This document shows, piece by piece, positions 7,568 to 18,379 of a stretch of 20,175 nucleotides of DNA (positions are counted from its first letter, which is position 1; each line of letters begins with the position of its first letter). A model generated the notes under the pieces. That model did not search any database and had not been told where the DNA came from. It was given only the letters and a program-made list of their open reading frames with translations. Source of the stretch: a virus; the IMG/VR virus record IMGVR_UViG_3300032294_001134, positions 1-20,175 of that record; one strand, written 5' to 3'. The translations under genes were made by a program, and so were the position numbers.

Positions 7568-7750
7568 ATGTTTGACACAATCACACAAGACCTAGAACTT
7601 GACTTCGGTATGGGTATGAAGTTTGAGGGTTCAAATGTTCAACCGCTAAAAGTAAATAAGAAGGCTCGCTATTGCGAGTGTGGCACTAAACTCTCAATGT
7701 ATAACCTAGAGGACAAGTGCTACCGCCACTTGACAGGCATAGCGTTCTAA
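7568..7750 (+). CDS. Small zinc-ribbon-like protein
   Basis: A 60-residue protein with a C-terminal metal-binding pattern: RYCECGTKLSMYNLEDKCYRH, giving C-x-C-x12-C-x2-H. CECGTKLSxYN is a motif I recall from short actinophage proteins with C-x2-C in the last position; here the last ligand would be His. The N-terminal half is acidic (TQDLELDFGMGMKFEG). ATG follows AAAGGGGGAAACAAA. The gene has its own promoter (P2) and its own terminator (7757-7780). The function is unknown; protein or nucleic-acid binding is likely for such ribbons. Confidence 0.75.
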   Translation: MFDTITQDLELDFGMGMKFEGSNVQPLKVNKKARYCECGTKLSMYNLEDKCYRHLTGIAF

Positions 7751-8030: not shown

Positions 8031-8056
8031 TCTAAAGACGAAAGGAAAAAGTAAAA

Positions 8057-8305
8057 ATGAGTGAGACGCTAACAATAGAACAACAAAAGGAAAGAGCCAA
8101 CAAGTTTTGGCAAAACTATTACGGCAGTTTCGAAGGCGCGACAATCCAAAAGTTTCTCGGTATGACAGAGGACGAGTGGGGTGGCAAGCCTTTCCCCGTA
8201 TTCGAAGTGCGATTTGCCAATGGTGAAGTAGGGCAGATTGAGATTAGCCAAGACGAGGAAGGCAATGGTGGGGGATTTATTTTCGGATTGAACCTGCCTA
8301 ACTAA
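8057..8305 (+). CDS. Hypothetical acidic early-type protein
   Basis: An 82-residue acidic protein. The N-terminal half is helical (TLTIEQQKERANKFWQNYYG); the second half looks like beta strands (FPVFEVRFANGEVGQIEISQ) ending in a Gly-rich stretch (GNGGGFIFGLNLP). No family recognised. The ATG is reached through GGAAAAAGTAAAAATG, which contains a near copy of the window's dispersed 14-mer directly over the ribosome-site spacer. It follows the 7881 gene by 26 bases and is probably co-transcribed from P3. Confidence 0.7.
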   Translation: MSETLTIEQQKERANKFWQNYYGSFEGATIQKFLGMTEDEWGGKPFPVFEVRFANGEVGQIEISQDEEGNGGGFIFGLNLPN

Positions 8306-8363: not shown

Positions 8364-8999
8364 ATGACAAAGATAAACTTCAGGACAAACCCTGAACAAC
8401 TAAAGAAAGCGCACTCCGCTAGGGAAATCAACAGATACCCGCGAGTGAAAACAAACAGACGACTGGCTGGAGAAATCAACAAGATAGGACAAGTCCTACC
8501 TGATGAAATGGCTGAAACTCTAAAGTCGCTAGACCAAGAAGGTCGAAATGGTCTTATTCACGCTCTTACTAAAAAGGGCTGGACACAGGCGAGTATTGGA
8601 AAAGCGTTAGAACTATCACGAGAAACAATTAGACAAATCGTGAAGGGAACTACCGCGACACCTATCTCATCTGACTTGGTGCTACCTGAACCACCGCGTT
8701 ATCCAATGCCTACGCAGGTTCAATACACAATGCCTAACGAGGAACTACTGGCAAGGCTAAAGGAACTTCAACCTTTCGCTCAACAGGTTCGCTCGTCTAG
8801 TAAGAAGTTTAGGGCAGAGGCAGAGGAATACTCTTACCTACTCAATCAGGCAACAGAGCAAGGCGTAACAGTTTATCGTTTAGCAAAACTACTAGGCGTT
8901 ACTCCATCTGCTATTCAATTCAGGCTCGTTCGCTATGGCTACCGCAATAGTGCTGGCGAGAGCAAGTCATACCAAACTATCAAGAAGGAAAACAGATAA
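8364..8999 (+). CDS. Two-HTH DNA-binding regulator
   Basis: A 211-residue basic protein with two helix-turn-helix segments. The first (about 63-94) reads LIHALTKKGWTQASIGKALELSRETIRQIV, a sigma/Xre-like HTH. The second (about 155-192) reads YLLNQATEQGVTVYRLAKLLGVTPSAIQFRLVRYG. They are joined by a Pro-rich linker (VLPEPPRYPMP) and a helical spacer (NEELLARLKELQPFAQQV). This matches the arrangement of the leftward protein at 6070-6570. The gene has its own promoter (P4) and ribosome site (AAAGGATAAA). It is a good candidate for a regulator of the divergent control region or of the dispersed 14-mer sites, but no binding evidence exists in the sequence. Confidence 0.8.
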   Translation: MTKINFRTNPEQLKKAHSAREINRYPRVKTNRRLAGEINKIGQVLPDEMAETLKSLDQEGRNGLIHALTKKGWTQASIGKALELSRETIRQIVKGTTATPISSDLVLPEPPRYPMPTQVQYTMPNEELLARLKELQPFAQQVRSSSKKFRAEAEEYSYLLNQATEQGVTVYRLAKLLGVTPSAIQFRLVRYGYRNSAGESKSYQTIKKENR

Positions 9000-9351
9000 C
9001 TTGAAGCCAAGAGCGTGTTCTCAATGCGGAGATTGGTATAACCCAAAGTTTCAGGGAACTGAAAACTTATGTGGGAAGTGTCATCTCAAAGAAGTAATCG
9101 GCAAACCAAAGACGGAGGCAGAGGTCGTAGAGCAAAAAGTAAAAAACTTTACGACCGCAAGCCAACCACAAACAAATCACCGACCTGAACCCCGGCTGAA
9201 GCGAGATGAGTCTGAGTTTAGAGGTGTATGTGCTAAGTGCGGATTGTGGCTGGAAGGTTCTGAAGTCTATAACAGAGAACGAGGCTGGATTTATTCGTGG
9301 ACTCACGTTGATTATGACCGCACACGCAGGAGTTACTGCCTAGTAGCCTAA
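8935..9351 (+). CDS. Zinc-ribbon protein with two Cys clusters
   Basis: Up to 138 residues with two C-x2-C-based clusters: ACSQCGDWYNPKFQ...NLCGKCH near the front and VCAKCGLWLEGSEVYN near the end, the second followed by His and a late Cys (WTHVDYDRTRRSYCLVA). A Lys/Glu/Pro-rich linker lies between. The start is uncertain: ATG at 8935 overlaps the HTH gene by 65 nt and has no good ribosome site, while a TTG at 9001 (giving LKPRACSQCG) lies downstream of AGAAGGAAAA. Coordinates use the ATG. The coding region contains one exact copy of the dispersed 14-mer (9132-9145). Last gene of the rightward block. The exact role is unknown. Confidence 0.7.
   Translation: MATAIVLARASHTKLSRRKTDNLKPRACSQCGDWYNPKFQGTENLCGKCHLKEVIGKPKTEAEVVEQKVKNFTTASQPQTNHRPEPRLKRDESEFRGVCAKCGLWLEGSEVYNRERGWIYSWTHVDYDRTRRSYCLVA
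9132..9145 (+). repeat. Dispersed 14-mer, exact copy 1
   Basis: GCAAAAAGTAAAAA inside the zinc-ribbon coding region, same strand as the gene, encoding Q-K-V-K-N. Confidence 0.7.
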
Positions 9352-9386
9352 GTTTCTTACTGGCAAGACAGGTAGCCCGTAAGAAC

Positions 9387-9430
9387 AAAAAGCCCCCCTA
9401 GTTTTACCTAGAGGGGGCTTTTCGCTTTTA
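9387..9430. terminator. Bidirectional terminator between convergent genes
   Basis: AAAAAGCCCCCCTAG pairs with CTAGAGGGGGCTTTT around a short loop, with A/T tracts on both sides. It can end the rightward block (stop at 9351) and also back up termination of the leftward lysis pair (stop at 9517). Confidence 0.85.
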
Positions 9431-9460
9431 CAAGCCAAGTTGTCGTCCTTCCATAAACCT

Positions 9461-9501
9461 AACGCCCCGGCTCATCAAGTTTATGTGAGAGCCGAGGCGT
9501 T
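9461..9501 (-). terminator. Strong hairpin after lysis genes
   Basis: AACGCCCCGGCTC (9461-9473) pairs with GAGCCGAGGCGTT (9489-9501) with one mismatch or wobble and a 15-base loop. It sits 15 bases after the stop of the leftward gene. The T tract is weak, so termination or mRNA protection are both possible. Confidence 0.55.
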
Positions 9502-9516
9502 GATTTGTTTAGAAGA

Positions 9517-10008
9517 TTACTCTGAAACCTTTACTGAGGTTCCTTCGAAAAGACGCTTGATAAGTTTTTCATCATCAACCCGCACAGATGCTTCATCACA
9601 GGAGCAAAACTCTGCGAGCGCCTTGCGTGTTCCATCACTTAGCCAACCTGGTTGGTCTTCATAACCACCATCATAGCCAAGTTGATAAAGTCTTTCTTGA
9701 ACCAAGAATACAGAACGAGAGTTTCTTGAAACTGCCTTGAACTTCAGGCTAGACAACAAAACAACTTCGTCATCTGCAAAAGTATCTGGCGCTGCAACCG
9801 CAGACTTTTTACTTTTTGCTTTTGGTTCTTCGACTACAACAACCGGCTCTTCAACAACAATTGGGTCTTCTACAACTTCTGGTGTTGCGAAAAATTGTGG
9901 TTCTGGTTCAGGTGTTGGCTCAACGACAACGGACTCAACCGCAACAGGCTCTACTACTGGTTCGTAGTAATACTGTGGTTCTGGGGTTGTTACTTCTTCA
10001 TTGTTCAT
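9517..10008 (-). CDS. Peptidoglycan-binding-like lysis partner
   Basis: A 163-residue protein with a long Pro/Val/Glu-rich low-complexity front (about 10-70, e.g. EPVVEPVAVESVVVEPTPEP), a Lys/Ser-rich hinge and a C-terminal domain (about 98-155). VFLVQERLYQLGYDGGYEDQPGW...DGTRKALAEF resembles the PG_binding_1 pattern (V-Q-x-x-L-x-x-L-G-Y ... T-x-x-A-L-x-x-F). It has no signal peptide. The ATG at 10008 follows AGAAGGATTCTCAA inside the end of the lysin gene (11-nt overlap), so the two are translationally coupled. The likely role is to bring wall binding to the lysin next door. An exact copy of the dispersed 14-mer (9806-9819) encodes part of AKSKKS. Confidence 0.7.
   Translation of the reverse strand: MNNEEVTTPEPQYYYEPVVEPVAVESVVVEPTPEPEPQFFATPEVVEDPIVVEEPVVVVEEPKAKSKKSAVAAPDTFADDEVVLLSSLKFKAVSRNSRSVFLVQERLYQLGYDGGYEDQPGWLSDGTRKALAEFCSCDEASVRVDDEKLIKRLFEGTSVKVSE
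9806..9819 (-). repeat. Dispersed 14-mer, exact copy 2
   Basis: GCAAAAAGTAAAAA on the minus strand, inside the wall-binding-like gene and co-oriented with it. Confidence 0.7.
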
Positions 10009-10612
10009 TTGAGAATCCTTCTGGGAAGCGTTCATACCAATACTGAAATCTTACCTCATCACGATTAGTGTAAGGGGCTTGAATCTTCCAAGAAATCCAA
10101 TTCTCGCCACCATTACTCATATGATAAGCAATCTCCGCGTTGACTACTGGGTCAAACAAGTCTTTGTTTGAGTCTAGGTCATACTTATCTCGACGAACAA
10201 CGCCAAGCCCACCAATCATATTGATTTGGAAGATTCCGTATGACGAGTCCCCTGTTCGTGTGTTGCCATTGAAGGCTAGGGGACGACCATTTGATTCCTT
10301 CTTCACGACAGCCCACGCTGTTTTGAGAGCCTTGCCCTCAAAGCCAACCGCGCTAAGCAGTTGTGCTAGTTCTACATCTGAGAAGGGAGTTTTCTTTACT
10401 GAGAACTTCTTTAGTTGAAGTTCTGCGAGTTTTGCTTTTTGTGCTTCTATTTCCGCCTCTACGGACTTTAGAGTTATAGCCTCTTTCGCCTGTAGGCTGG
10501 CAACATCTTCTGAGCCTGAAGTTTGGGCAAAAGCCGAAACGACAGAGAAAAATGTTACTGACAACGCCACCGCAATGATTTTTTCGACGGCTTTGTTAGT
10601 AGGTTTTAGCAT
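9998..10612 (-). CDS. Secreted lytic transglycosylase-like lysin
   Basis: A 204-residue protein with an N-terminal signal peptide (MLKPTNKAVEKIIAVALSVT to about residue 29, cleavage after AFA). A helical, probably coiled-coil stretch follows (about 35-75), then a lysozyme/SLT-like fold. The catalytic Glu is likely in AWAVVKKESNGRPLAFN (E106), with the family motif SSYGIFQIN (about 124-131) and a W-x-x-W-K end. It would cut the glycan strands of peptidoglycan. The signal peptide implies Sec export rather than holin-only release. The start at 10612 is chosen because AAAGGA lies 7 nt upstream; the frame runs 17 codons further without a better site. The leader (10613-10735) is unusually long and hairpin-rich. 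Confidence 0.8.
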   Translation of the reverse strand: MLKPTNKAVEKIIAVALSVTFFSVVSAFAQTSGSEDVASLQAKEAITLKSVEAEIEAQKAKLAELQLKKFSVKKTPFSDVELAQLLSAVGFEGKALKTAWAVVKKESNGRPLAFNGNTRTGDSSYGIFQINMIGGLGVVRRDKYDLDSNKDLFDPVVNAEIAYHMSNGGENWISWKIQAPYTNRDEVRFQYWYERFPEGFSNEQ

Positions 10613-10735
10613 TGAGTGTTCCTTTGTTAGGGGACAGGGACAGGGTGCTGTGGAAGCCACCATCGGCGTTACTTACCCGCCTTATTCCCCCCGCTGTGGG
10701 GAGAGGGTTGTTTTACAACCTTTCTTTTATAAGTC
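10613..10735 (-). promoter_or_regulatory. Long structured leader of the lysin gene
   Basis: About 120 bases with several small hairpins on the minus strand: GGTTGT-AAA-ACAACC, CCCC-ACAG-CGGGG, GGCG-N9-CGCC and GGTG-N10-CACC, ending in the lysin ribosome site. AGCGGGGGGAA and a later CTAAC faintly recall conserved blocks of the c-di-AMP (ydaO) riboswitch, which in actinobacteria often sits before wall-hydrolase genes, but the full consensus is not visible. No clean -35/-10 pair was found for this gene. Confidence 0.35.
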
Positions 10736-10772
10736 GCTATGTCTTATGGTGTTACCTTAGCACAGAAAAGTC

Positions 10773-10814
10773 AGACAAGTGGCGATTTCGGGGGTGAAAG
10801 TCGCCACTTTGTCT
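10773..10814 (-). terminator. Terminator of the DUF6011 gene
   Basis: Minus-strand AGACAAAGTGGCGA pairs with TCGCCACTTGTCT (one bulge), then GACTTTTC. It lies just after the stop of the 10825-11286 gene. Confidence 0.75.
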
Positions 10815-10824
10815 AACCCGTGTC

Positions 10825-11286
10825 TTATCTTCCGAAAGCCTTTCGGCAAACCGGACCAAGACCTAACTCACGACTAACATCATCTGTGAGTTCAGCACCG
10901 CACTTGGCACAGCAAGCGTAGTGAACAGCGAACAACTTGGCATACTTGTATGGGTCGCCAAGCAAAATACGCACAAAAGCAAGCGTATCTTCGGGTGCTG
11001 GCTTGATACGAGAGAAGCCTCCGTATGAGCCAATCAGACGGCGAAGATATGTGGTCTTCTTGAACTCGCGGATTTCAACGAATACAAGGTCATTATCAAC
11101 AGGCTGAACCATATAATCACCCATAAGTTCATCTGTTGGTATGGCATACTTCGATTTAGGAAGTTTAGAAAGTGCCTCATAAAGTTCTTTCCAATTGAAC
11201 TTTGGGGCAACATTTGCGACAGGCGCAGGAACCGCAGGTGCGGGAGCAGGGTTCTCACCAAAGAGAACTAATTGTTGTGTGGTCAT
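10825..11286 (-). CDS. DUF6011-containing phage protein
   Basis: A 153-residue protein starting MTTQQLVLFGENPAPAPAVP, with a Pro/Ala-rich linker, a central alpha/beta region and a C-terminal Cys motif (ACCAKCGAELTDDVSRELGLGPVCRKAF). The pattern C-x2-C-G-x-x-L-T-D-x-x-S-x-x-x-G-x-G-P-x-C is the DUF6011 signature found in actinobacterial and actinophage proteins. The function is unknown; the Cys residues probably bind zinc. The ATG at 11286 follows AAAGGGGGTCTTCA; the frame runs nine codons further upstream without support. The gene has its own TTGACT promoter (11310-11338) and terminator. Confidence 0.8.
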   Translation of the reverse strand: MTTQQLVLFGENPAPAPAVPAPVANVAPKFNWKELYEALSKLPKSKYAIPTDELMGDYMVQPVDNDLVFVEIREFKKTTYLRRLIGSYGGFSRIKPAPEDTLAFVRILLGDPYKYAKLFAVHYACCAKCGAELTDDVSRELGLGPVCRKAFGR

Positions 11287-11309
11287 TGAAGACCCCCTTT
11301 CAAGACATA

Positions 11310-11338
11310 ACAATACTATAAGTCAAAACAAAAGTCAA
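11310..11338 (-). promoter_or_regulatory. Promoter (TTGACT-N17-TATTGT) for the DUF6011 gene
   Basis: TTGACT at 11338-11333 followed by TTT, spacer 17, TATTGT at 11315-11310, about 24 bases before the ATG. Confidence 0.65.
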
Positions 11339-11349
11339 TACGACACGCA

Positions 11350-11390
11350 GAAAGAAGCCCCCCGCAAGAGGAAGGTATGCGGAGGGCTTT
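11350..11390 (-). terminator. Terminator of the small-gene operon
   Basis: Minus-strand AAGCCCTCCGCA and TGCGGGGGGCTT form a 12-bp stem with one G-U pair and an 11-base loop, followed by CTTTCTG. It lies after the last gene (11404-11553) of the operon starting near 13128. Confidence 0.75.
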
Positions 11391-11403
11391 GTCTTGAACT
11401 TGT

Positions 11404-11553
11404 CTAGCGTTCCCTGCTTGCGAGCGTCGCGCTCGTCAAAGCCGAGAATCCTAGGGCGATAGTCCAAGGAACTGAATTCTGCCACGCCGCGAAGAAAGAA
11501 GCAAGTCCGAAAACCAATGCTCCTACGGCAGTCCATACAATGTTCACTTTCAT
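11404..11553 (-). CDS. Tiny two-helix membrane protein
   Basis: A 49-residue frame: MKVNIVWTAVGALVFGLASF, then FAAWQNSVPW, TIALGFSALTSATL and the basic end ASRER. Two hydrophobic segments (about 5-23 and 29-45) are joined by a short turn, so a hairpin membrane protein is likely. ATG at 11553 follows AAGGAAGTAAGAA and lies 3 bases after the stop of the HTH gene. Size and topology are compatible with a holin or another small phage membrane protein, but it is not next to the lysin genes and I assign no role. A longer frame in another register (to 11300) is rejected because it runs through the terminator. Confidence 0.7.
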   Translation of the reverse strand: MKVNIVWTAVGALVFGLASFFAAWQNSVPWTIALGFSALTSATLASRER

Positions 11554-11556
11554 TTC

Positions 11557-11775
11557 TTACTTCCTTTTCTTCGGGCTAGTCCTGCCTTTGACACGGGCAG
11601 ATGGGTCTCGCAGGGGAACTCCCCTACTTCTTATTGCTTTGCGAGCGCATCTATAGGAAACCTTTAGTTCGCTGGCAACACTCTCGATTGACAACCCCTC
11701 CGCGTACAAACGGGAAGCGTCCTCCTCGATTCTTTTACTTTTTGTTGTTCCCACAACAGACTTACTCTTCGTCAT
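11557..11775 (-). CDS. Small HTH DNA-binding protein
   Basis: A 72-residue, very basic protein. LYAEGLSIESVASELKVSYRCARKAIRSRGVPLRDPS (about 23-59) is a typical helix-turn-helix of the resolvase-like kind (G-L-S-I-x-x-V-A-x-x-L-x-V-S), with an R-G-V-P-L-R-D wing. The tail is Lys/Arg-rich (KGRTSPKKRK). It overlaps the DUF7694 gene by 14 nt. A near copy of the dispersed 14-mer (ACAAAAAGTAAAA) lies at 11733-11745 in its coding region. A small transcriptional regulator is likely; its targets are unknown. Confidence 0.75.
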   Translation of the reverse strand: MTKSKSVVGTTKSKRIEEDASRLYAEGLSIESVASELKVSYRCARKAIRSRGVPLRDPSARVKGRTSPKKRK

Positions 11776-12235
11776 AAGGTCTTTGCCTTGCTCCCATAAT
11801 TACCTCTGGGTCTAAACCTTTTGACCGCAACCACTCTTTGTTCTCTGGGTCTTGGGGGTCATTGACTACATGACGACCTTCGTTCCAAGTGAAGAAAGAT
11901 GTTGTGCCTTCAGGTAGAACCCAAAGGTGATACTGATTTGATGTATCAACAAGTTGGCTTTCAGGTGGGAAGATTTCTACGGCTTCTCTTTCAGCACCCG
12001 CAAGTTCGTTCTTGATACGCTGGAAGTGTCTCCAATCTCTAACCGCCTTTCGTTCGTTATGGCGAATAGAAAGATGGATACCACTCTTGTCTCCAAGTTC
12101 AGGCTCAAGTATGTGCTTGATAACTGTGTAGAACTTGTTTCTCCAAATAGTTTGATTAGGGTCAAGGCCTACCTTGTGCCAATTTACAACCGCAGTTGCT
12201 TCCTCAAACTTATCCCAAGTGGGTTTGTTCGTCAT
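11762..12235 (-). CDS. DUF7694-type phage protein
   Basis: A 157-residue protein. The central stretch (about 53-107), with HLSIRHNERKAVRDWRHFQR, KNELAGAEREAVEIFPPES and LVDTSNQYHLWVLP, matches the pattern I recall for DUF7694, a domain common in actinophage proteins. The N-terminus reads WDKFEEATAVVNWHKVGLDP and the C-terminus is acidic and Pro-rich. The function is unknown. Start ATG overlaps the upstream stop as ATGA; the end overlaps the HTH gene by 14 nt. Confidence 0.75.
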   Translation of the reverse strand: MTNKPTWDKFEEATAVVNWHKVGLDPNQTIWRNKFYTVIKHILEPELGDKSGIHLSIRHNERKAVRDWRHFQRIKNELAGAEREAVEIFPPESQLVDTSNQYHLWVLPEGTTSFFTWNEGRHVVNDPQDPENKEWLRSKGLDPEVIMGARQRPYDEE

Positions 12236-12408
12236 AGGACATTACCTTTTACTTTCTTGATAATGCGATAAATAACATAACCCGCAATACCTGCTAACAA
12301 TGCTGGCGTATAAACCGACACATTGAAGAAGTTTGATGAGACTTCAATCCACTCGAACTGGCACTTGAAATCACACTCTGCGTCCGCAATAATCTGTGAT
12401 GTTTCCAT
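12232..12408 (-). CDS. Tiny membrane protein
   Basis: A 58-residue protein beginning METSQIIADAECDFKCQFEW. A single hydrophobic helix (YTPALLAGIAGYVIYRII, about 33-50) is followed by a basic end (KKVKGNV), so the C-terminus is probably cytoplasmic. Two cysteines (12 and 16) lie on the probable outer side. The ribosome site GGGAGGTGAA is near perfect, and the stop overlaps the next ATG as ATGA. No family recognised. Confidence 0.75.
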   Translation of the reverse strand: METSQIIADAECDFKCQFEWIEVSSNFFNVSVYTPALLAGIAGYVIYRIIKKVKGNVL

Positions 12409-12576
12409 TTAGTTCACCTCCCTTATCTTCTTCCACTCCAACTCGACCAACTCTTGGCGTAGTTGTTTGTTCTCCCGCATCAACTTCCCGTAGGCGTTGA
12501 TGGAAACCACCATCACAAAGCACGAACCTGCGAGCGCAATAATGATGGCAAGCATTGTTCCTGTGTCTAGAACCAT
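12409..12576 (-). CDS. Tiny membrane protein with coiled-coil tail
   Basis: A 55-residue protein: a hydrophobic helix near the front (MLAIIIALAGSCFVMVVSI, about 8-26) followed by a charged heptad-like helix (KLMRENKQLRQELVELEWKK, about 31-50). This is the layout of small phage membrane proteins such as Rz-like spanins or accessory proteins, but the length is short and no lysis gene is adjacent. The stop is immediately followed by the next ATG (TAAATG). The ATG at 12576 is preceded by AGGATAAAGTAAAA, related to the dispersed A-rich box. Confidence 0.75.
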   Translation of the reverse strand: MVLDTGTMLAIIIALAGSCFVMVVSINAYGKLMRENKQLRQELVELEWKKIREVN

Positions 12577-12578
12577 TT

Positions 12579-12749
12579 TTACTTTATCCTAACTTCTTCG
12601 AGGGACGCTATTTCTTGCTTGATAGTTACATAAGCATTACCGCACGGATAGCAATACTTTTCTGTGAAAGGCATTTCCCGCATAAAGGCATCTACGCCCG
12701 AATAAATAAGGTTTGTGTTTTCACAATGAGGTGTTGCGCACTTCTTCAT
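12579..12749 (-). CDS. Tiny zinc-ribbon protein
   Basis: A 56-residue protein beginning MKKCATPHCENTNLIYSGVD. It carries C-x4-C (C4, C9) and C-x2-C (C33, C36 in KYCYPCGNAY), a treble-clef or ribbon-like layout, and ends in a Lys/Glu-rich helix (TIKQEIASLEEVRIK). The ATG overlaps the upstream stop as TAATG, so it is translationally coupled. The function is unknown. Confidence 0.75.
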   Translation of the reverse strand: MKKCATPHCENTNLIYSGVDAFMREMPFTEKYCYPCGNAYVTIKQEIASLEEVRIK

Positions 12750-12937
12750 TAGTTTCCCTTTCGTTGTAGTTGAGGTAGCGGAAGATTTCTCATAAACTCC
12801 CTACGCGCTTCTTTTGTTGGTAAGTTGTCTCGTTCTTCCATTTGTTCTGGAGTCATAAATGCGAACTTCAATAAGAACTCCGCAAACTCGTTATCTGAAA
12901 TCTTGGCAAGGTCTTGCCCATACTTTCCTTTATTCAT
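12749..12937 (-). CDS. Small helical hypothetical protein
   Basis: A 62-residue protein, MNKGKYGQDLAKISDNEFAE onward, rich in helix formers (EFAEFLLKFAFMTPEQMEER) with a basic end (RREFMRNLPLPQLQRKGN). No family recognised. The ATG at 12937 is chosen because GGGGAGGGAAAGTA lies directly upstream and it overlaps the preceding stop as TAATG; an in-frame GTG at 12961 is less likely. Confidence 0.7.
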   Translation of the reverse strand: MNKGKYGQDLAKISDNEFAEFLLKFAFMTPEQMEERDNLPTKEARREFMRNLPLPQLQRKGN

Positions 12938-13128
12938 TACTTTCCCTCCCCGAAATAGCACTCAACCATTTGACCCCAGCAGTAGCCTTCTTCGCCACCA
13001 ACCCACCATAGGTTTCCTGATACCTGAACTAATCCCCACACAAGCGCACCTGCGAGCGCGAGAGCGATAACAAACGCAACTCGTCTGCGTTGTATGAACT
13101 TCTTATCCATCTTCATTACTAGTGCCAT
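12937..13128 (-). CDS. Small single-helix membrane protein
   Basis: A 63-residue protein: a basic front (MKMDKKFIQRRR), one strong membrane helix (VAFVIALALAGALVWGLVQV, about 17-36), then an aromatic and acidic outer part with two cysteines (GYCWGQMVECYFGEG). Positive-inside logic puts the C-terminus outside. First gene of the eight-gene run down to 11404. An upstream promoter is seen at 13177-13205, and the first bases of the transcript hold a perfect inverted repeat (13151-13169). Confidence 0.7.
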   Translation of the reverse strand: MALVMKMDKKFIQRRRVAFVIALALAGALVWGLVQVSGNLWWVGGEEGYCWGQMVECYFGEGK

Positions 13129-13150
13129 CTTCTTAGCCCTTTCTCTAAGT

Positions 13151-13169
13151 TTGACTTCTTCTAAGTCAA
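13151..13169. promoter_or_regulatory. Inverted repeat at transcript start
   Basis: TTGACTT-CTTCT-AAGTCAA, perfect 7-base arms, starting about 7 bases after the -10 of the 13177-13205 promoter. The arms themselves contain TTGACT, the -35 word of the leftward promoters, on both strands. Operator or 5' mRNA hairpin. Confidence 0.45.
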
Positions 13170-13176
13170 TGGAGTA

Positions 13177-13205
13177 ATAATACCAACTTCCCTGACTTTT
13201 TTCAA
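13177..13205 (-). promoter_or_regulatory. Promoter (TTGAAA-N17-TATTAT) for the small-gene operon
   Basis: TTGAAA at 13205-13200, TATTAT at 13182-13177, spacer 17. It sits at the end of the 13207-13410 gene and precedes the 13128 start. Confidence 0.65.
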
Positions 13206-13206
13206 G

Positions 13207-13410
13207 TTACCTGACTTTCGGCGTGTCGCAAGTGGAGAGGTAGATTGGATTGGTTTTTACTTTTTGCTTAGAACCTTCTTCCTCACAACCCCACTCCACA
13301 TAAGCGCACTCACTCCAATAGCAACGCACCGCAAAGCACATCTCATCACCGCAAGGGCAATCTATCCACTTTGCGTCTGCGTCGCACTTGGAGCAAGTGG
13401 TTGCTTCCAT
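13207..13410 (-). CDS. Small Cys-rich protein
   Basis: A 67-residue protein with eight cysteines in the first 42 residues (CSKC, DCPCGDEMC, RCYWSEC, GC), probably binding one or two zinc ions. WSECAYVEWGC resembles ribbon proteins that bind nucleic acid or protein, but no family is recognised. The ATG overlaps the phosphatase stop as TAATG, so the two are translationally coupled. An exact copy of the dispersed 14-mer (13254-13267) encodes SKQKVK. Confidence 0.75.
   Translation of the reverse strand: MEATTCSKCDADAKWIDCPCGDEMCFAVRCYWSECAYVEWGCEEEGSKQKVKTNPIYLSTCDTPKVR
13254..13267 (-). repeat. Dispersed 14-mer, exact copy 3
   Basis: GCAAAAAGTAAAAA on the minus strand, inside the 13207-13410 gene and co-oriented. 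The reading frame differs from that of copy 2, so the match is not explained by a shared peptide. Confidence 0.7.
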
Positions 13411-13946
13411 TACTCCGCCTTAGGGAGCGAGAGCAACCACTTCTCAAAGGTTGAATTGAATAATGCGTATTGGCTTCGCTTATCTCGGATTAGGCAAATC
13501 GCTTCTTCCGCAGAATAACCTTCACGCATTAGGACTAATGCCATAACTAGCCCTGAACGATTTAGTCCTGCTTGGCAACGAATAAGAACTCGCTTACCTG
13601 ATTTCCAATCTTCGTGAGCAATCCGCACAATTTGGAATAACTCCTTGAAGTCAATCCCACTCATATTTGGACTATCGTAGAACGGATAGCGAATTTCCTT
13701 TACTAGCCAATCCGCAGGGTTTGCGTATTGGTAGGCAGTAATTACTGTATCGAAGTCTTCTTTAGTAATCCGCACATCACCTTCACGATTTCTCTCAAAG
13801 ATAGTGTCGTCATCATCTGTACCTCCCTGAAATAGGTTAGGCAAGATTTCGTTCCACAGTTCAGTTGGGTAATCAATCGCTGTGTATTGCGGAGCAATAC
13901 CTAAGTCGTCTTCATCTACTTCTGTCCATTGTGTATTTGTCGTCAT
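13410..13946 (-). CDS. Dual-specificity protein phosphatase-like protein
   Basis: A 178-residue protein with the Cys-based phosphatase signature C-x5-R: VLIRCQAGLNRSGLV, catalytic Cys124 and Arg130. An Asp in YPFYDSPNMSG (about residue 91) is in the right place for the general acid. ELWNEILPNLFQGGTDDDD matches the start of the DSP fold (I-L-P-x-L-F-x-G). It would dephosphorylate Ser/Thr/Tyr phosphoproteins or possibly RNA 5' phosphates. The ATG at 13946 follows AAAGGAGAAAACAAA; the frame extends six codons further without better support. Its stop overlaps the next ATG. Such phosphatases occur in various phages; the target here is unknown. Confidence 0.85.
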   Translation of the reverse strand: MTTNTQWTEVDEDDLGIAPQYTAIDYPTELWNEILPNLFQGGTDDDDTIFERNREGDVRITKEDFDTVITAYQYANPADWLVKEIRYPFYDSPNMSGIDFKELFQIVRIAHEDWKSGKRVLIRCQAGLNRSGLVMALVLMREGYSAEEAICLIRDKRSQYALFNSTFEKWLLSLPKAE

Positions 13947-13970
13947 TTTGTTTTCTCCTTTCATAATAGT

Positions 13971-13999
13971 ATTTTATCAGTTTTTTCCTTTTTTGGCAA
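13971..13999 (-). promoter_or_regulatory. Promoter (TTGCCA-N17-TAAAAT) for the phosphatase gene
   Basis: TTGCCA lies at 13999-13994 inside the end of the 13977-14141 gene; TAAAAT at 13976-13971 begins directly after its stop. Weaker than the TTGACT promoters; read-through from upstream is also possible. Confidence 0.45.
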
Positions 14000-14141
14000 A
14001 TCCAAATAAACGAGCAACAAAGGCATTTAGCATCTCCGCATTTTGTTCGTAGTATGCGTGGTCTTTAGTCTTGCTCTTTCTTTTCTTAGTAGAGCGTTTG
14101 ACCGCAGTATAAATAACACTATCGGGTAATCCCTTTGGCAT
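13977..14141 (-). CDS. Small LPDS/FVAR-type phage protein (copy 2)
   Basis: A 54-residue very basic protein, MPKGLPDSVIYTAVKRSTKK, then RKSKTKDHAYYEQNAEMLNA and FVARLFGFAKKGKN. It is the leftward relative of the 49-residue protein at 7881-8030: GLPDS, a basic middle, YYxxNAxxLNxFVAR at matching positions. The ribosome site AAAGGAGGAACAA is near ideal and a TTGACT promoter lies at 14168-14196. A longer overlapping frame in another register (14027-14251) is a shadow. Function unknown. Confidence 0.8.
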   Translation of the reverse strand: MPKGLPDSVIYTAVKRSTKKRKSKTKDHAYYEQNAEMLNAFVARLFGFAKKGKN

Positions 14142-14167
14142 TTGTTCCTCCTTTCTTTGTAAGACAA

Positions 14168-14196
14168 AGAATACCCTATTACCGCATAAAAGTCAA
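14168..14196 (-). promoter_or_regulatory. Promoter (TTGACT-N17-TATTCT)
   Basis: TTGACT at 14196-14191 followed by TTT, spacer 17, TATTCT at 14173-14168. Drives the 13977-14141 gene. Confidence 0.75.
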
Positions 14197-14321
14197 ATCC
14201 TAAAAAAGAGATGTATCTCACAGGCAAAATGTCCGAATTGTCTTCACACATTTTTTGCTAAGGTTTTTGCTCACTACGAACAACTTTGCATTGTTTCCGG
14301 ACCCTACCGGCTATTGCATGA

Positions 14322-14335
14322 TTTTTACTTTTTGC
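14322..14335 (-). repeat. Dispersed 14-mer, exact copy 4
   Basis: GCAAAAAGTAAAAA in the non-coding stretch 14200-14350, 40 bases from CCGG-N6-CCGG (14299-14312). It lies between a terminator and the next promoter. Confidence 0.7.
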
Positions 14336-14352
14336 TACACCTTTGCACGCAC

Positions 14353-14383
14353 AAAAAAGAAAACCCCCGCACTTGGCGGGGGC
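14353..14383 (-). terminator. Terminator of the 14399-14623 gene
   Basis: Minus-strand GCCCCCGC...GCGGGGG stem, then TTTTCTTTTTT. Confidence 0.85.
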
Positions 14384-14398
14384 TTCCTTGAATTCTAT

Positions 14399-14623
14399 TT
14401 AGTTTTTTACAAGCACCGCAGGGTCAAACTTCTTGGCACACTCTCTGCCTATGTTCCAGAACCCCTGTGAGTCTGCTTCGCTGGCTGGGTGTAACACCGC
14501 ACCGCCTGTGGATACATTTACTAGGTAAGCGTTCTTACCTGTCTTGCGTCCGCATTGAATACAGTAGTTCTCGTAGTTGCCATTAGGCTCTACCCAATTT
14601 ACGAAATCTCCAAAACTTAGCAT
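14399..14623 (-). CDS. Small Cys-containing hypothetical protein
   Basis: A 74-residue protein. FVNWVEPNGNYENYCIQCGRKTGKNAYLV carries C-x2-C-G, and a later WNIGRECAKKFDP supplies a third Cys, recalling DUF6011-like endings (G-x-x-C-x-K-x-F). A beta-rich centre (AYLVNVSTGGAVL) lies between. It probably binds zinc; the function is unknown. ATG at 14623 follows AAAGGGGGTGAAGATAG. Transcribed alone from the promoter at 14655-14683 to the terminator at 14353-14383. Confidence 0.75.
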   Translation of the reverse strand: MLSFGDFVNWVEPNGNYENYCIQCGRKTGKNAYLVNVSTGGAVLHPASEADSQGFWNIGRECAKKFDPAVLVKN

Positions 14624-14654
14624 CTATCTTCACCCCCTTTCTGCTAATACCCTA

Positions 14655-14683
14655 AGCATAACATAGTGGAATTAGAAAGTCAA
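14655..14683 (-). promoter_or_regulatory. Promoter (TTGACT-N17-TATGCT)
   Basis: TTGACT at 14683-14678, TATGCT at 14660-14655, spacer 17. The -35 overlaps the end of the upstream gene (stop at 14685). Confidence 0.75.
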
Positions 14684-14684
14684 G

Positions 14685-14855
14685 TTACTCTTTTGGTATA
14701 AAAGTCGGGTCGCATTGAAAACAAACGGGTTCTCCATTTATCTCGTTCATACAACCACTATCAAAGTTCTCTGAACATTTCACGCAATAGCAAGCATCTT
14801 CCTCTACCGCGTGAGTATTCAAGCAAGACTTACATAACTTCGCAGTCGTGTCCAT
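14685..14855 (-). CDS. Small Cys-rich zinc-ribbon protein
   Basis: A 56-residue protein starting MDTTAKLCKSCLNTHAVEED. It has three C-x-x-C or C-x-C pairs (CKSC, CYCVKC, CFQC) plus one further Cys, a layout suited to two zinc sites. Acidic overall. The ATG at 14855 lies 9 bases after GGAGG; an in-frame ATG at 14873 is less favoured. It overlaps the end of the 14830-14940 gene by 26 nt. No family recognised. Confidence 0.65.
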   Translation of the reverse strand: MDTTAKLCKSCLNTHAVEEDACYCVKCSENFDSGCMNEINGEPVCFQCDPTFIPKE

Positions 14856-14940
14856 AGCCCCACTCCTCCGCATCTATCTCATTGAGTAGGTCAAAGACCC
14901 TACCGCACTCTACGCACTTGGCTTTAGTTGTTATTTCCAC
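14830..14940 (-). CDS. 36-residue zinc-finger-like protein
   Basis: A short frame from GTG at 14940, VEITTKAKCVECGRVFDLLN followed by EIDAEEWGYGHDCEVM. KCVECGRVFDLLNEIDAEEWGYGHDCE is a compact C-x2-C ... H-x-C module that I recall as a recurring unit in actinophage small proteins. GAGGTGG lies 10 bases upstream of the GTG, inside the end of the 14931-15071 gene, so the start is coupled. Strong motif but small size; confidence is moderate. Confidence 0.65.
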   Translation of the reverse strand: MEITTKAKCVECGRVFDLLNEIDAEEWGYGHDCEVM

Positions 14941-15071
14941 GGCGAGTGAACCACCTCGTTGTCGTATCCGCACTTTACGCAGGTAAACCAATAGGTTGAA
15001 CCATCATCTTCAAAATCTTCGTTCTCTGTCTCACACTCATCTGCCTCACATAGAACCACATACTTTGCCAT
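14931..15071 (-). CDS. Tiny acidic zinc-ribbon protein
   Basis: A 46-residue protein, MAKYVVLCEADECETENEDF onward, with C-x4-C (8 and 13) and C-x2-C (31 and 34 in FTCVKCGYDNE). The middle is highly acidic. ATG follows AAGGGAAAAGAA. First gene of the three-gene zinc-ribbon cluster 15071-14685, driven by the promoter at 15102-15131. Function unknown. Confidence 0.75.
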   Translation of the reverse strand: MAKYVVLCEADECETENEDFEDDGSTYWFTCVKCGYDNEVVHSPWK

Positions 15072-15101
15072 TTCTTTTCCCTTTCGTTGGCTTGTTGTCT
15101 A

Positions 15102-15131
15102 AGTATAACATCATCTATCTTAGAAAGTCAA
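15102..15131 (-). promoter_or_regulatory. Promoter (TTGACT-N18-TATACT)
   Basis: TTGACT at 15131-15126 followed by TTCTA, TATACT at 15107-15102, then TAG as in sister promoters. Confidence 0.75.
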
Positions 15132-15196
15132 GTCGTGTCGCAAAGTTATTTCTATGTCCAGCACCGCTGCCAAATAGCCAGACCGCAAAACGCAAG

Positions 15197-15210
15197 TTTT
15201 TACTTTTTGC
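15197..15210 (-). repeat. Dispersed 14-mer, exact copy 5
   Basis: GCAAAAAGTAAAAA in the gene-free stretch 15135-15240 between a terminator and the next promoter. The same stretch holds CGCAAAGTTATTTCTATGTC (15138-15157), related to CGCAAGTTGTTTCTATCTC near copy 6. Confidence 0.7.
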
Positions 15211-15241
15211 TTTAGGGGTACCTCCGGAATCTGCGAACAAC

Positions 15242-15272
15242 AAAAAAGACGCGGGGGTTAGCCCGCGCCTTC
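15242..15272 (-). terminator. Terminator of the DUF3846 gene
   Basis: Minus-strand GCGGG-N6-CCCGC-type stem extended by flanking pairs, then GTCTTTTTTG. Confidence 0.8.
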
Positions 15273-15288
15273 TCTGTGGGAAATCTAT

Positions 15289-15657
15289 TTAGTTGTATAG
15301 CGCACCGAATAAGTAGGCAGTTGGAATTACCTGTGAGTTGTATGCCAACCACTTTTCTACCTGCTCGTCAGTCAGTCCTAGCGTGTAGCCTTCTTCATCT
15401 GTCCCGCCAGTAATGATTACATTGCCGAGAATAGGATTACCTGCTTTCCAAGTCTCCGAATAAATCGCAGACCCGTGTAGGTTGAGTGGCAAGCCCTCTG
15501 CTATGCCATTTTCATTTACCCACATATCTGTGTTCTCGTCAATTCCAACGCACTCTATCATTCCGCCAACCGCGTCAGATAAAGTCTTGTAAGAAGTTTC
15601 GTTGGTAAATTCAACCACTTGCTTCTCACCACTTGTTGTGATTATGACTGCTTTCAT
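15289..15657 (-). CDS. DUF3846-like phage protein
   Basis: A 122-residue acidic protein beginning MKAVIITTSGEKQVVEFTNE. The order of elements (front strand, YKTLSDAVGGMIECVGI, MWVNENGIAEGLPLN, then ILGNVIITGGTDEEGYTLGLTDEQ) matches DUF3846, a family widespread in actinobacteria and their phages. Its biochemical role is unknown. ATG at 15657 follows AGAAAGGGGGGACACT. This ribosome site is exactly complementary over 12 nt to the first loop of the candidate C-rich RNA at 17678-17790. Single-gene unit with its own promoter and terminator. Confidence 0.8.
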   Translation of the reverse strand: MKAVIITTSGEKQVVEFTNETSYKTLSDAVGGMIECVGIDENTDMWVNENGIAEGLPLNLHGSAIYSETWKAGNPILGNVIITGGTDEEGYTLGLTDEQVEKWLAYNSQVIPTAYLFGALYN

Positions 15658-15680
15658 AGTGTCCCCCCTTTCTTTCTCTA

Positions 15681-15709
15681 AGTATAACACCGCGTCTAAT
15701 AAAAGTCAA
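15681..15709 (-). promoter_or_regulatory. Promoter (TTGACT-N17-TATACT)
   Basis: TTGACT at 15709-15704, TATACT at 15686-15681, spacer 17, followed by TAG. Drives the DUF3846 gene. Confidence 0.8.
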
Positions 15710-15716
15710 GTATTAG

Positions 15717-15755
15717 GAAAAGAAAAACTCCCCCGCACCAACCAAGACGAGGGAG
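15717..15755 (-). terminator. Terminator of the WGR-like gene
   Basis: Minus-strand CTCCCTCG pairs with CGGGGGAG (one G-U) around a 12-base loop, then TTTTTCTTTT. Confidence 0.8.
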
Positions 15756-15773
15756 CCTTTCCCGCCCACCGAA

Positions 15774-16013
15774 TTAGGCTACGAGCACCACTTCGTAGCC
15801 TCTTGTAAGTTTAGATTGAACCTTGTCGTTAGCGTATGCCTTAGCAAGGAATGGATAAGCAAAACTCTTTACTTGCTTTGCTTGTGGAGCGACTTCTTCA
15901 GCCTTACCCCAAAGTGTAATAACTTTGTTATCTTCAACGATAACCTGATAAATCTTCTTGAGACCGGCATTTCCGCGTTCTCCGTCAGACTTCTTGACGA
16001 GTATCCACTTCAT
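15774..16013 (-). CDS. WGR-domain-like small protein
   Basis: A 79-residue basic protein. KKIYQVIVEDNKVITLWGKAEEV matches the core of WGR domains (strand, turn, strand, W-G-R/K), and FLAKAYANDKVQSKLTRGYEVV matches the C-terminal helix and G-Y strand. WGR domains bind nucleic acid, for example in PARP proteins. Here the Arg of W-G-R is Lys. ATG at 16013 follows AAAGGGGAAAACA. Single-gene transcription unit. Confidence 0.7.
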   Translation of the reverse strand: MKWILVKKSDGERGNAGLKKIYQVIVEDNKVITLWGKAEEVAPQAKQVKSFAYPFLAKAYANDKVQSKLTRGYEVVLVA

Positions 16014-16043
16014 TGTTTTCCCCTTTCTGAAGTTGATAAGAGT

Positions 16044-16071
16044 ATTTTACCAGTTTTGGCAGGGAAGTCAA
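16044..16071 (-). promoter_or_regulatory. Promoter (TTGACT-N16-TAAAAT)
   Basis: TTGACT at 16071-16066, TAAAAT at 16049-16044, spacer 16. Drives the WGR-like gene. Confidence 0.65.
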
Positions 16072-16195
16072 GTTGAAATAGGAAATCCGCATTGTGTTTT
16101 GTATCACATTTATAAATCCTATGCCAGCAAGAACCCTTTGGCACTTCTTCCGCAAGTTGTTTCTATCTCCAGACAGCCGGGTCCCGGAGCAACAA

Positions 16196-16209
16196 GCAAA
16201 AAGTAAAAA
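16196..16209 (+). repeat. Dispersed 14-mer, exact copy 6 (reverse orientation)
   Basis: GCAAAAAGTAAAAA on the plus strand in the gene-free stretch 16076-16250. It is the only exact copy running against local transcription. It is flanked by CCGGG-T-CCCGG (16178-16188) and GCCGGC (16216-16221). Confidence 0.7.
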
Positions 16210-16252
16210 ACTTTAGCCGGCTCCTCCATCTTCAGAATAACTTGCGTGCATG

Positions 16253-16282
16253 AAAAAACCCCGGCTTCTTCAGCCGGGGCTT
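16253..16282 (-). terminator. Terminator of the 16294-16527 gene
   Basis: Minus-strand CCCCGGCT-GAAGA-AGCCGGGG, then TTTTTT. A very strong intrinsic terminator. Confidence 0.9.
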
Positions 16283-16293
16283 CTCCAGATAAA

Positions 16294-16527
16294 TTACCTA
16301 TCTAAGCGAAGTATCCGCACTAGGTCGCCGGCAGATAACTCCCAGCCGGAATCAGTCTTGCGAGCGCAAGCGGGGTGTGGCTCTATGTCCGCAGGTAAAG
16401 TAATTACCGCATCATAGTCTTCTGCCTGATAAAACTCCCACGCCTTGATAGCGGGTTCCGCGTAATCAAGTGGTAGGGGTGGATAGAAATTACCACGCAA
16501 GTGGTAGGTCATAGACATTGTGTCCAT
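16294..16527 (-). CDS. Hypothetical protein behind a structured leader
   Basis: A 77-residue protein, MDTMSMTYHLRGNFYPPLPL onward. A Pro/aromatic front is followed by a helix (EPAIKAWEFYQAEDYDAVITL), a PHPAC segment and an acidic-to-basic end (WELSAGDLVRILRLDR). No family recognised. ATG at 16527 follows AAAGGGGAACGC. The gene is unusual for its ~105-nt leader, which can fold into a long stem (16554-16632), suggesting control of its expression at RNA level. Confidence 0.7.
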   Translation of the reverse strand: MDTMSMTYHLRGNFYPPLPLDYAEPAIKAWEFYQAEDYDAVITLPADIEPHPACARKTDSGWELSAGDLVRILRLDR

Positions 16528-16553
16528 GCGTTCCCCTTTCAAGAGAAATTAGG

Positions 16554-16632
16554 TTCAGTAGGGGAGTCGTATTGTTTCCCACCCTCCGGAGTTCAAGTGG
16601 TTCAGGTGTCCAGCGACTTCCCCCCTACTGAA
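16554..16632 (-). promoter_or_regulatory. Structured 5' leader RNA, possible cis-regulator
   Basis: Minus-strand TTCAGTAGGGG (16632-16622) pairs perfectly with CCCCTACTGAA (16564-16554), extended by GTCG/CGAC after a small internal loop. The stem encloses about 43 bases containing CTCCGGAG and CACC/GGTG pairs. It starts within about ten bases of the expected transcript start and ends some 27 bases before the ATG. No riboswitch class is recognised; a phage-specific protein- or ligand-binding leader is possible. Confidence 0.55.
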
Positions 16633-16639
16633 TAACTGA

Positions 16640-16668
16640 AGTATAGCAACCCTAGAAAGAAAAGTCAA
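16640..16668 (-). promoter_or_regulatory. Promoter (TTGACT-N17-TATACT)
   Basis: TTGACT at 16668-16663, TATACT at 16645-16640, spacer 17. Drives the structured leader and the 16294-16527 gene. Confidence 0.8.
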
Positions 16669-16757
16669 GTCGTGTCGTTCAGCAAATAGGCGTACGCATA
16701 GCGACTTCAGAATAACTTTTTGACTTGCAGGGGACCGGCTTGTTGCGTGCCGGAGAG

Positions 16758-16771
16758 TTTTTACTTTTTGC
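16758..16771 (-). repeat. Dispersed 14-mer, exact copy 7
   Basis: GCAAAAAGTAAAAA beginning at the last base of the HslV-like gene's stop codon and co-oriented. It is followed by the hairpin CCGGC-N9-GCCGG. Confidence 0.7.
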
Positions 16772-17343: not shown

Positions 17344-17378
17344 CGTACTGCTCCCTGTCGGTTTTTACTTTTTACTAC

Positions 17379-18156: not shown

Positions 18157-18367
18157 CATCATCTCCATCTACGATACCAATGTCGTTAGATACAGAGGCA
18201 ACATCAAAGCCATAGTATTCCTTGATAAAGACACTAGCAGTTCTCACCGCAAAGTCTTCATCTTCCTCCCCATCAAGTCTCAACTTATCATCAAGAACAA
18301 CTGTGGTCATAAGAGTGAAGTAGTCCCCAACAAACAATACTGTTCGTGAAAGATTTATGTTATCCAT
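18140..18367 (-). CDS. Hypothetical acidic protein
   Basis: A 75-residue, strongly acidic protein: MDNINLSRTVLFVGDYFTLM, then LRLDGEEDEDFAVRTASVFIK, with a C-terminal Asp run (DGDDDDSVE). No family recognised. It starts through TAAGGAAAAAGTAAAATG: the stop of the upstream gene, the ribosome site and a near copy of the dispersed A-rich box are fused together. Acidic small proteins of phages sometimes mimic DNA or bind basic partners, but nothing specific is seen. Confidence 0.65.
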   Translation of the reverse strand: MDNINLSRTVLFVGDYFTLMTTVVLDDKLRLDGEEDEDFAVRTASVFIKEYYGFDVASVSNDIGIVDGDDDDSVE

Positions 18368-18379
18368 TTTACTTTTTCC

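Follow-up and report, generated by a model that had tools for sequence, protein, structure and literature searches.

Introduction

Genome-silencing arrays of dispersed binding sites are best known from the Cluster A phages and their relatives, which are temperate actinophages, and class I activator boxes are located upstream of phage promoters. The stoperators of Cluster A are short, asymmetric and dispersed, lie mostly between genes or at gene ends, and have a consensus that differs between related phages (PMC3029335, PMC6550527). The SAS/ESAS element of Cluster K is a dispersed, asymmetric 13-bp repeat among non-structural genes, mostly in one orientation (PMC3203893). Here we describe an array of a short asymmetric repeat in IMG/VR record IMGVR_UViG_3300032294_001134, of which positions 1 to 20,175, the whole stretch analysed, are called the window. 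The window represents part of the genome of a large freshwater actinophage.

Copies of the repeat in the window

Seven exact copies of the 14-mer GCAAAAAGTAAAAA are present, with left ends and strands (9132+, 9806-, 13254-, 14322-, 15197-, 16196+ and 16758-) as given in a sequence-only reading of this DNA, and its judgement that they are far beyond chance was borne out, as order-3/4 Markov models predict 0.0015-0.002 copies. Allowing up to two mismatches to the 14-mer, the window holds 15 matches, against a mean of 0.48 and a largest value of 3 in 100 dinucleotide shuffles of the window. An origin by chance or composition is ruled out by the shuffles, the Markov expectation and the family-wide counts below. 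The near copies reported earlier also exist, those at 17362 and 6806 exactly where they had been placed and three others slightly displaced (8044, not 8046; 11732, not 11733; 18366, not 18367), and additional ones were found at 7645, 12576 and 16189. The near copies at 8044, 12576 and 18366 fall on RBS+ATG (GGAAAAAGTAAAAATG-like) and are for this reason less certain individually. The sites and the neighbouring signals, with partners in the related records G003 and G040, are:

8044..8057, + strand: one-mismatch 14-mer with exact core; overlaps the start codon of 8057-8305; matched to G040:74352
9132..9145, + strand: exact site inside the + ORF 9001-9351; a strong hairpin (z = -5.15) places it in the loop; orthologue in G003 at 8580
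9806..9819, - strand: exact copy in the linker region of a peptidoglycan-binding-like gene
11732..11745, - strand: two-mismatch copy, uncertain; inside ORF 11557-11775
12576..12589, - strand: two-mismatch copy, uncertain; on the start codon of 12409-12576
13254..13267, - strand: exact copy close to the end of ORF 13207-13410; a promoter -35 follows 49 bp downstream
14322..14335, - strand: exact copy in a terminator-promoter gap; orthologue G003:14174
14357..14389, - strand: intrinsic terminator, preceding site 14322
15102..15131, - strand: promoter TTGACT-18-TATACT, downstream of site 15197
15197..15210, - strand: exact copy in a terminator-promoter gap; orthologue G003:15018
16196..16209, + strand: exact site in a terminator-promoter gap, antisense to both flanking genes
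16640..16668, - strand: promoter TTGACT-17-TATACT, downstream of site 16758
16758..16771, - strand: exact copy over the stop codon of 16771-17343, with promoter 16668-16640 downstream
17362..17375, - strand: one-mismatch 14-mer with exact 12-mer core, between two genes; orthologue G003:17192
18366..18379, - strand: two-mismatch copy, uncertain; on the start codon of 18140-18367

Within called ORFs, sites 9132 and 13254 read ...QKVK... and site 9806 reads AKSKK; the in-gene copies, described earlier as lying in different reading frames, occupy two frames and not three. The 9806 site is found in the same frame and at the matching place in about 13 more contigs of the family.

The array in related phages

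Comparison with relatives identified the 12-mer AAAAAGTAAAAA, mostly present as TAG[C/T]AAAAAGTAAAAA, as the selected unit. It occurs 265 times over 17 contigs, where the next-best word of the form AAAAAnnAAAAA reaches 8. Over 13 contigs there are 221 exact cores against 1.05 expected and 79 one-mismatch cores against 25 expected, and this large excess of exact cores beside a small excess of one-mismatch cores points to very strict recognition. Three long records (123-127 kb) carry 19, 20 and 29-30 copies: in G003 all 19 lie at 8.6-31.8 kb of 125 kb, in G040 18 of the 20 lie at 74-99 kb of 123 kb, and in G047 the 29-30 copies lie at 75-105 kb of 127 kb. Nearly all copies are found in a single stretch of small genes, and they are nearly absent from the rest of the long records. 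The genes of this block are probably early genes, short and individually promoted.

In G003, eight of the nine sites in the window are partnered by an exact core lying between the same genes, where the immediate flanks of partnered sites are on average 52% identical, and as little as 28%. In G040 seven of the nine are partnered, with a flank identity of 37%. Sites are thus kept between the same genes even at flank identities of only 26-50%. Site 16196 retains both place and orientation at G003:16023 and G004:23903, with flank identities of 0.28 and 0.38. The sequence-only reading had named a lack of whole-genome enrichment, or of conserved sites in related phages, as findings that would speak against it; whole records show enrichment, and the sites are conserved in relatives. 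Because it is confined to the small-gene block and frozen amid changing DNA, the 12-letter word almost certainly serves as the docking site of a regulator. In a literature search, no phage paper stood out as containing the 12-mer.

Placement relative to genes, promoters and RNA structure

Among 215 sites of the family, 136 are intergenic and 34 lie at gene edges. Sites near promoters are upstream of them, between the terminator of one unit and the promoter of the next, and the others are on start or stop codons or within genes. Around the TSS of 100 strong promoters, the bins between -40 and +99 contain no site centre. Relative to the start site, gap sites of the window family lie at about -100 to -200; a fixed site-promoter spacing was looked for and not found, the distance to the -35 ranging from 9 to several hundred bp. 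For 67 non-redundant strong promoters, only 26 core copies lie in the 150 bp upstream.

The gap sites of the window family run mostly with transcription (231 co : 40 anti), and 32 or more sites are antisense to the genes on both sides. The earlier statement that all exact copies but one run with local transcription is true for the window, but the in-gene polarity (54:2) is that of any A-rich word, since control words are equally biased (AAAAAnnAAAAA without GT, 21:0; AAAAnnAAAA, 173:20), and in-gene orientation was dropped as evidence of polarity. A general hairpin element was likewise rejected, since no more than about 9% of sites sit in strong stems, compared with 2.6% of re-paired flanks, and Rfam gave no match to a known RNA family.

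Candidate binding proteins

Three proteins encoded in the window had been named as possible binders, and a second copy of the first is encoded 14-20 kb beyond the array, outside the window:

8364..8999, + strand: two-HTH DNA-binding protein of 211 aa, copy 1, with HTH_3 and Sigma70_r4 hits
6070..6570, - strand: distant two-HTH paralogue, also in phages without arrays
11557..11775, - strand: small protein with one HTH, present also in the array-less DSL-LC01 and G033
46351-46911 of IMGVR_UViG_3300022752_000026: copy 2 HTH gene

Of the named proteins only 8364-8999 tracks the A-tract arrays, and does so imperfectly; 6070-6570 and 11557-11775 were rejected as specific binders because both occur in array-less relatives. 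The most likely binder, judged from its distribution, is a member of the two-HTH family that 8364-8999 represents. Neither DSL-LC01 (129 kb, complete) nor G033 (160 kb), both without an A-tract array, encodes this family, and the copy-1 proteins of array phages group in a single supported clade. An AF2 model of 8364-8999 places the HTHs at about 58-94 and 150-190 in separate, linker-joined domains, an arrangement that would be suited to an asymmetric site.

As sole binder, 8364-8999 is untenable, since copy 1 is missing from the array carriers G025, G028 and G084-G087; its N-terminal recognition helix varies widely, whereas the sites do not. Copy 2 is the better candidate because it is found in every array record that reaches its place (G003, G006, G023, G040, G042, G044, G047, G083 and G088). 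The protein at 8364-8999 is a candidate binder or a paralogue of the binder. The Cluster A repressor (7TZ1/7R6R), which in its gp71 form combines an HTH with a Stoperator domain, was absent among profile hits to E 1 and among the 50 best fold matches.

Sister phages with variant motifs

Sister phages carry the in-register variant motifs AAAAAATAAATAC, AAAAAATGAATAC and AAAAATGAAAAAT, which run antisense to genes (20:0, 34:2, 24:1 and 20:1). Each of these arrays keeps a single orientation and has one site per transcription unit, at the unit boundary, near an HTH gene. Polarity relative to transcription is not conserved over the wider group. Sister gap sites often lie about 32 bp before the -35, and in record G077 13 of 17 detected promoters begin 29-33 bp after a site. 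The motif variants follow the HTH clades, and other genes would follow the phage phylogeny too. Small-gene content varies between relatives. One 135-kb record has an array of another motif and no member of the two-HTH family:

G111, record IMGVR_UViG_3300032214_000528: GGGGTAAAAA group

In cultured Microbacterium phages with genes for the HTH family (L217-L220), a k-mer scan found no comparable array. Three other repeats were rejected as the same element: the GAGCTGAGCTA repeats (L158/L160/L199) are tandem and were not counted, and both TAATTATATCAGG (L182 group) and the AAGATGTTATA of DSL-LC01 resemble an extended -10 promoter.

Discussion

The preferred, if tentative, reading is that the array consists of recognition sites for a phage protein, a two-HTH binder, and serves stoperator-like silencing or insulation of the early block. 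A phage-encoded two-HTH protein would recognise TAGCAAAAAGTAAAAAC and, bound at gene ends, at start codons and just downstream of terminators, would obstruct RNA polymerase arriving by read-through or from internal starts, which would let the whole early region be shut down together. The proposal builds on the enrichment and regional confinement of the sites, their conservation against diverged flanks, the in-register variants, and the placement relative to genes and strong promoters; from these we infer that the binder may be such a protein, that its effect would be repressive, and that its purpose would be early shut-off rather than lysogeny. The positions of the gap sites (-100 to -200, and about 32 bp before the -35 in sisters) also suit an activator, and this counts against silencing.

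Activation, in which a phage protein bound upstream of early or middle promoters would switch them on together, agrees with the many gap sites upstream of TTGACT/TATACT promoters, with the narrow spacing in G077 and with the one-oriented sister arrays. We nevertheless consider it unlikely, given the variable spacing in the window family, the many sites on start codons or in genes, and the few cores close to strong promoters. True stoperators of the Cluster A type, where the lysogeny repressor of a temperate phage blocks prophage elongation in one orientation only, would fit in size, asymmetry, copy number, intergenic and gene-end placement and motif variation (PMC3029335, PMC6550527), and the array-less relative DSL-LC01 is predicted to be lysogenic (PMC10611076). 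They appear quite improbable here: no tyrosine integrase (PF00589), ParA (PF13614) or large serine integrase was found in the records, which may be incomplete, the sole recombinase being a serine recombinase of about 220 aa with a partial PF07508 match, and no homology to 7TZ1/7R6R was detected. The stoperator reading is further weakened because in-gene polarity is no greater than base-composition bias, because the sister arrays run antisense to genes and because no site overlaps a strong promoter.

Silencing or insulation by a bound protein has also to be set against roles of the DNA or RNA itself. That the repeat is a recombination or cassette-boundary sequence, letting phages shuffle small early genes, is suggested by the single boundary copy per small transcription unit in sisters and by the differing small-gene content, but is distinctly unlikely, as many copies lie within genes at conserved places, the core stays exact while the adjoining boundary DNA diverges, 12 bp is very short for homology-driven exchange, and the motif variants track HTH clades. 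Another DNA-level role in the early region, in replication, compaction or partition, would agree with the regional confinement, the two orientations and the very strict core; we find it very improbable, since one site per transcription unit at gene boundaries mirrors gene organisation, no ParA was found and the motif is not palindromic. An RNA-level element (a translation start signal, leader or processing site, comparable to the Cluster K SAS) seems highly unlikely. Many sites do overlap ATG or lie in leaders, mostly sense, and stem-loops are more frequent than in re-paired flanks, but the sites antisense to both neighbours lie in gaps expected to be little transcribed, such antisense sites are conserved (16196), and the distance to starts is not fixed.

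Returning to silencing of the early block, it is possible, though rather doubtful, that the array is a stoperator-like system of independent origin, in which a near-invariant 12-bp A-tract site would be recognised by a two-HTH protein that is not related to the Cluster A repressor. Such a system would have sites at most early transcription units of a region controlled as a block, in phages seemingly without integration or partition genes, several clades of which would have their own site versions. If true, uncultured and seemingly non-temperate freshwater phages would have a second array, one with different sites and apparently a different protein, which would suggest more than one origin of array-type control and a use of it beyond lysogeny. 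Since the motif variants and their matching proteins form a natural series, recognition could be put to the test without new construction work.

Comparison with known systems

Like class I activator boxes, the gap sites are located upstream of promoters, with a spacing near 32 bp in G077; unlike them, the window family has no fixed spacing and includes intragenic and start-codon sites. The array shares its dispersed, asymmetric nature with the Cluster K SAS, which lie 3-7 bp ahead of start codons and include AGGAG, whereas the core here has no such sequence and only a minority of the 215 sites touch start codons, many being in gaps, in genes or antisense. The analogy with Cluster A stoperators drawn in the sequence-only reading is not supported by in-gene polarity or by the sister arrays, nor as regards operators, integrase and ParA, and repressor homology: the A-tract site is unrelated to GGTGGMTGTCAAG, no sites lie over strong promoters whereas Cluster A systems include true operators, array polarity is not conserved across the group, and recognition is stricter. 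It holds for layout, enrichment and conservation. As with L5 gp71, Bxb1 gp69 and the TipsytheTRex repressor, the sites are short and asymmetric (about 20-35 copies of a 13-bp motif per genome there, 19-30 of a 12-mer core here), lie mainly between genes or over gene ends and differ in motif between related phages, and the candidate protein, like the Cluster A repressor (PMC9283540), has two DNA-binding domains.

Identification of the repeat

All seven exact copies of a 14-mer that the sequence-only reading had placed in the window (left ends 9132, 9806, 13254, 14322, 15197, 16196 and 16758) were confirmed, where order-3/4 Markov models predict about 0.002. Allowing up to two mismatches gave 15 matches, where shuffled sequences average 0.48. 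The part that is invariant across relatives is the 12-mer core AAAAAGTAAAAA. The two bases before it vary by phage (usually GC, sometimes CC or GG; GT in contigs G006, G007 and G047), and the extended consensus in relatives is TAG[C/T]AAAAAGTAAAAA[C/T]. In family totals, which count orthologous sites of related contigs more than once, AAAAAGTAAAAA occurs 265 times over 17 contigs and every other AAAAAnnAAAAA at most 8 times, and in 13 contigs exact cores number 221 (1.05 expected) and one-mismatch cores 79 (25 expected), so that core recognition appears to be very strict.

Source phage and location of the array

The portal protein encoded by the window record, a virus contig of 20,175 bp, matches phage DSL-LC01 (OQ999401) from lake water, Microbacterium phages Pumpernickel, Cece and Zooman, and 80 IMG/VR loci, which makes this a large actinophage. 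The contigs compared are metagenome fragments. The whole-record enrichment that the sequence-only reading had set as a test was found in three long relatives, with all 19 cores of G003 (124,941 bp) within 8.6-31.8 kb, 18 of the 20 in G040 (122,901 bp) within 74-99 kb, and all 30 in G047 (127,375 bp) within 75-105 kb. This region is a short-gene block beyond the terminase/portal end, which we infer from gene order and the DSL-LC01 annotation to be the "early" region. A motif-only scan of viral contigs added array phages G083-G088.

The window also encodes the following, the first two in its small-gene block:
13410-13946, dual-specificity phosphatase
16771-17343, HslV/proteasome-like protein
12232-12408 and 12409-12576, very small proteins of 59 and 56 aa, probably of the membrane (in G003 at 11636- and 12198-, minus strand), which occur in 22 of the 23 array contigs but neither in DSL-LC01 nor in contig G033

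A second dispersed word, AACTACAAACAACTT, lies near promoters in gaps of several array phages, namely G015 (loci L089/L090; nine copies), G011 and G023.

Placement and conservation of the sites

The 215 cores divide into 136 between genes, 34 that touch a gene edge and 45 within genes, the gap counts being approximate as genes were called by a simple codon-based script. Gap sites follow the terminator of one unit and precede the next unit's TTGACT...TATACT promoter. Near 100 strong promoters, site centres lie at about -200 to -81; the -60 bin contains three, and the bins from -40 to +99 are empty. A fixed spacing to the -35 was not found in the window family.

Sites are kept between the same genes despite diverged flanks. 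Exact-core partners were found for 8 of 9 window sites in G003 (mean identity 52% in the 25+25 bases flanking the core) and for 7 of 9 in G040 (37%). Site 16196, antisense to both neighbours, is found in G003 and G004 at the same place and in the same orientation, with only 28-38% flank identity, and site 9806, in the linker of a peptidoglycan-binding-like gene, reappears with its frame unchanged in some 13 further contigs. From these comparisons, the sites appear to be under selection.

On the proposal that the sites run with transcription, gap sites in 23 contigs count 231 with and 40 against. Within genes the bias (54 sense, 2 antisense) is equalled by control words in the same genes (21:0 and 173:20); it therefore reflects base composition, and was dropped as a real orientation signal.

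Candidate binding protein and sister phages

The protein encoded at 8364-8999 (copy 1) has two HTH regions, one near residues 68-99 that matches HTH_3 (E 6e-8) and Sigma70_r4 and a second near residues 159-185, and its predicted structure (mean pLDDT 84) shows two distinct tri-helical domains. Its clade (support 98/97) consists of array phages, and the family is absent from DSL-LC01 and G033, both lacking the A-tract array. Copy 1 is missing from array contigs G025, G028 and G084-G087, and its N-terminal recognition helix is highly variable whereas the 12-mer core is not. A second member, copy 2, lies 14-20 kb past the far end of the array, was found in each of the nine array records extending that far, and has helices that closely resemble those of sister phages. 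In array records with neither copy, the array always continues to the end of the contig on the side where copy 2 would lie. The gaps and variable helix of copy 1, set against the presence of copy 2 in all nine records, make copy 2 the preferred candidate binder.

Homologues of the 8364-8999 protein occur in 80 loci. Those with close homologues carry AAAAAGTAAAAA, and several others have dispersed words of their own, as recovered by a k-mer search that may miss degenerate sites:
AAAAAATGAATAC, G067, 21 copies of its 11-mer
AAAAATAAATAC, G077, 38 copies
AAAAATGAAAAAT, G066, 22 copies, and G075, 26 copies
ACTCAAAAAAC, G081, 14 copies

In an alignment with AAAAAGTAAAAAC, the first three are in register. 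They also occur about once per transcription unit, in the terminator-promoter gap and near the HTH gene; in G077 the distance from the end of the site to the -35 is often about 32 bp. In the AAAAAGTAAAAAC register they are antisense to genes (20:0, 34:2, 20:1 and 24:1). The window family more often has the reverse orientation, so these phages do not share one polarity relative to transcription.

The HTH family is also encoded by two Aquiluna MAG contigs, L215 (with 8 copies of AAAATAACTA) and L216, a hint that the hosts of one sister clade are Aquiluna-like. Locus L210 carries the palindrome TACCTAGGTAA four times at 1283-1488, spaced about 46-111 bp.

GGGGTAAAAA forms arrays of 18-23 copies, placed in gaps and at gene starts, in related contigs G037 (L125-L127; 10.3-34.8 kb), G106 and G111 (59.7-77.9 kb), and in G037 many copies closely follow TATATA. 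No HTH-family member was found in G111 (135 kb) or its GGGGTAAAAA-array relatives, which would either use another protein or represent a separate system. In DSL-LC01, AAGATGTTATA occurs 17 times at 24.8-43.3 kb, all on the same strand and adjoining TCTAAAGATGT and GTTATAATAGA; it is apparently a conserved extended -10 promoter at many small genes.

Possible role and comparison with known systems

The placement on stops, on starts and just after terminators, together with the avoidance of promoter cores, fits a bound protein that would block read-through or internal transcription better than it fits classical operators. Early-gene shut-off is the role that we tentatively prefer for the array. 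Its main rival is that the sites bind an activator, as a promoter lies downstream of many gap sites. Lysogeny is doubtful, since neither PF00589 nor ParA was found in the records, which may be incomplete, and the only recombinase found is a serine recombinase of about 220 aa.

An AGGAG motif and a fixed link to start codons mark the Cluster K SAS (PMC3203893), and neither applies to the present sites. Among Cluster A phages, L5 has 24 stoperators and Bxb1 has 34; these asymmetric 13-bp sites lie mainly between genes and point in the direction of transcription (PMC3029335). The protein that binds them is a monomer and has two DNA-binding domains (PMC9283540), and their motif spectra follow the repressor (PMC6550527). 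Tests of the array phages for repressor homology, operators and integration genes set them apart from Cluster A, and the array is therefore not classed as a member; the stoperator likeness raised by the sequence-only reading is one of layout.
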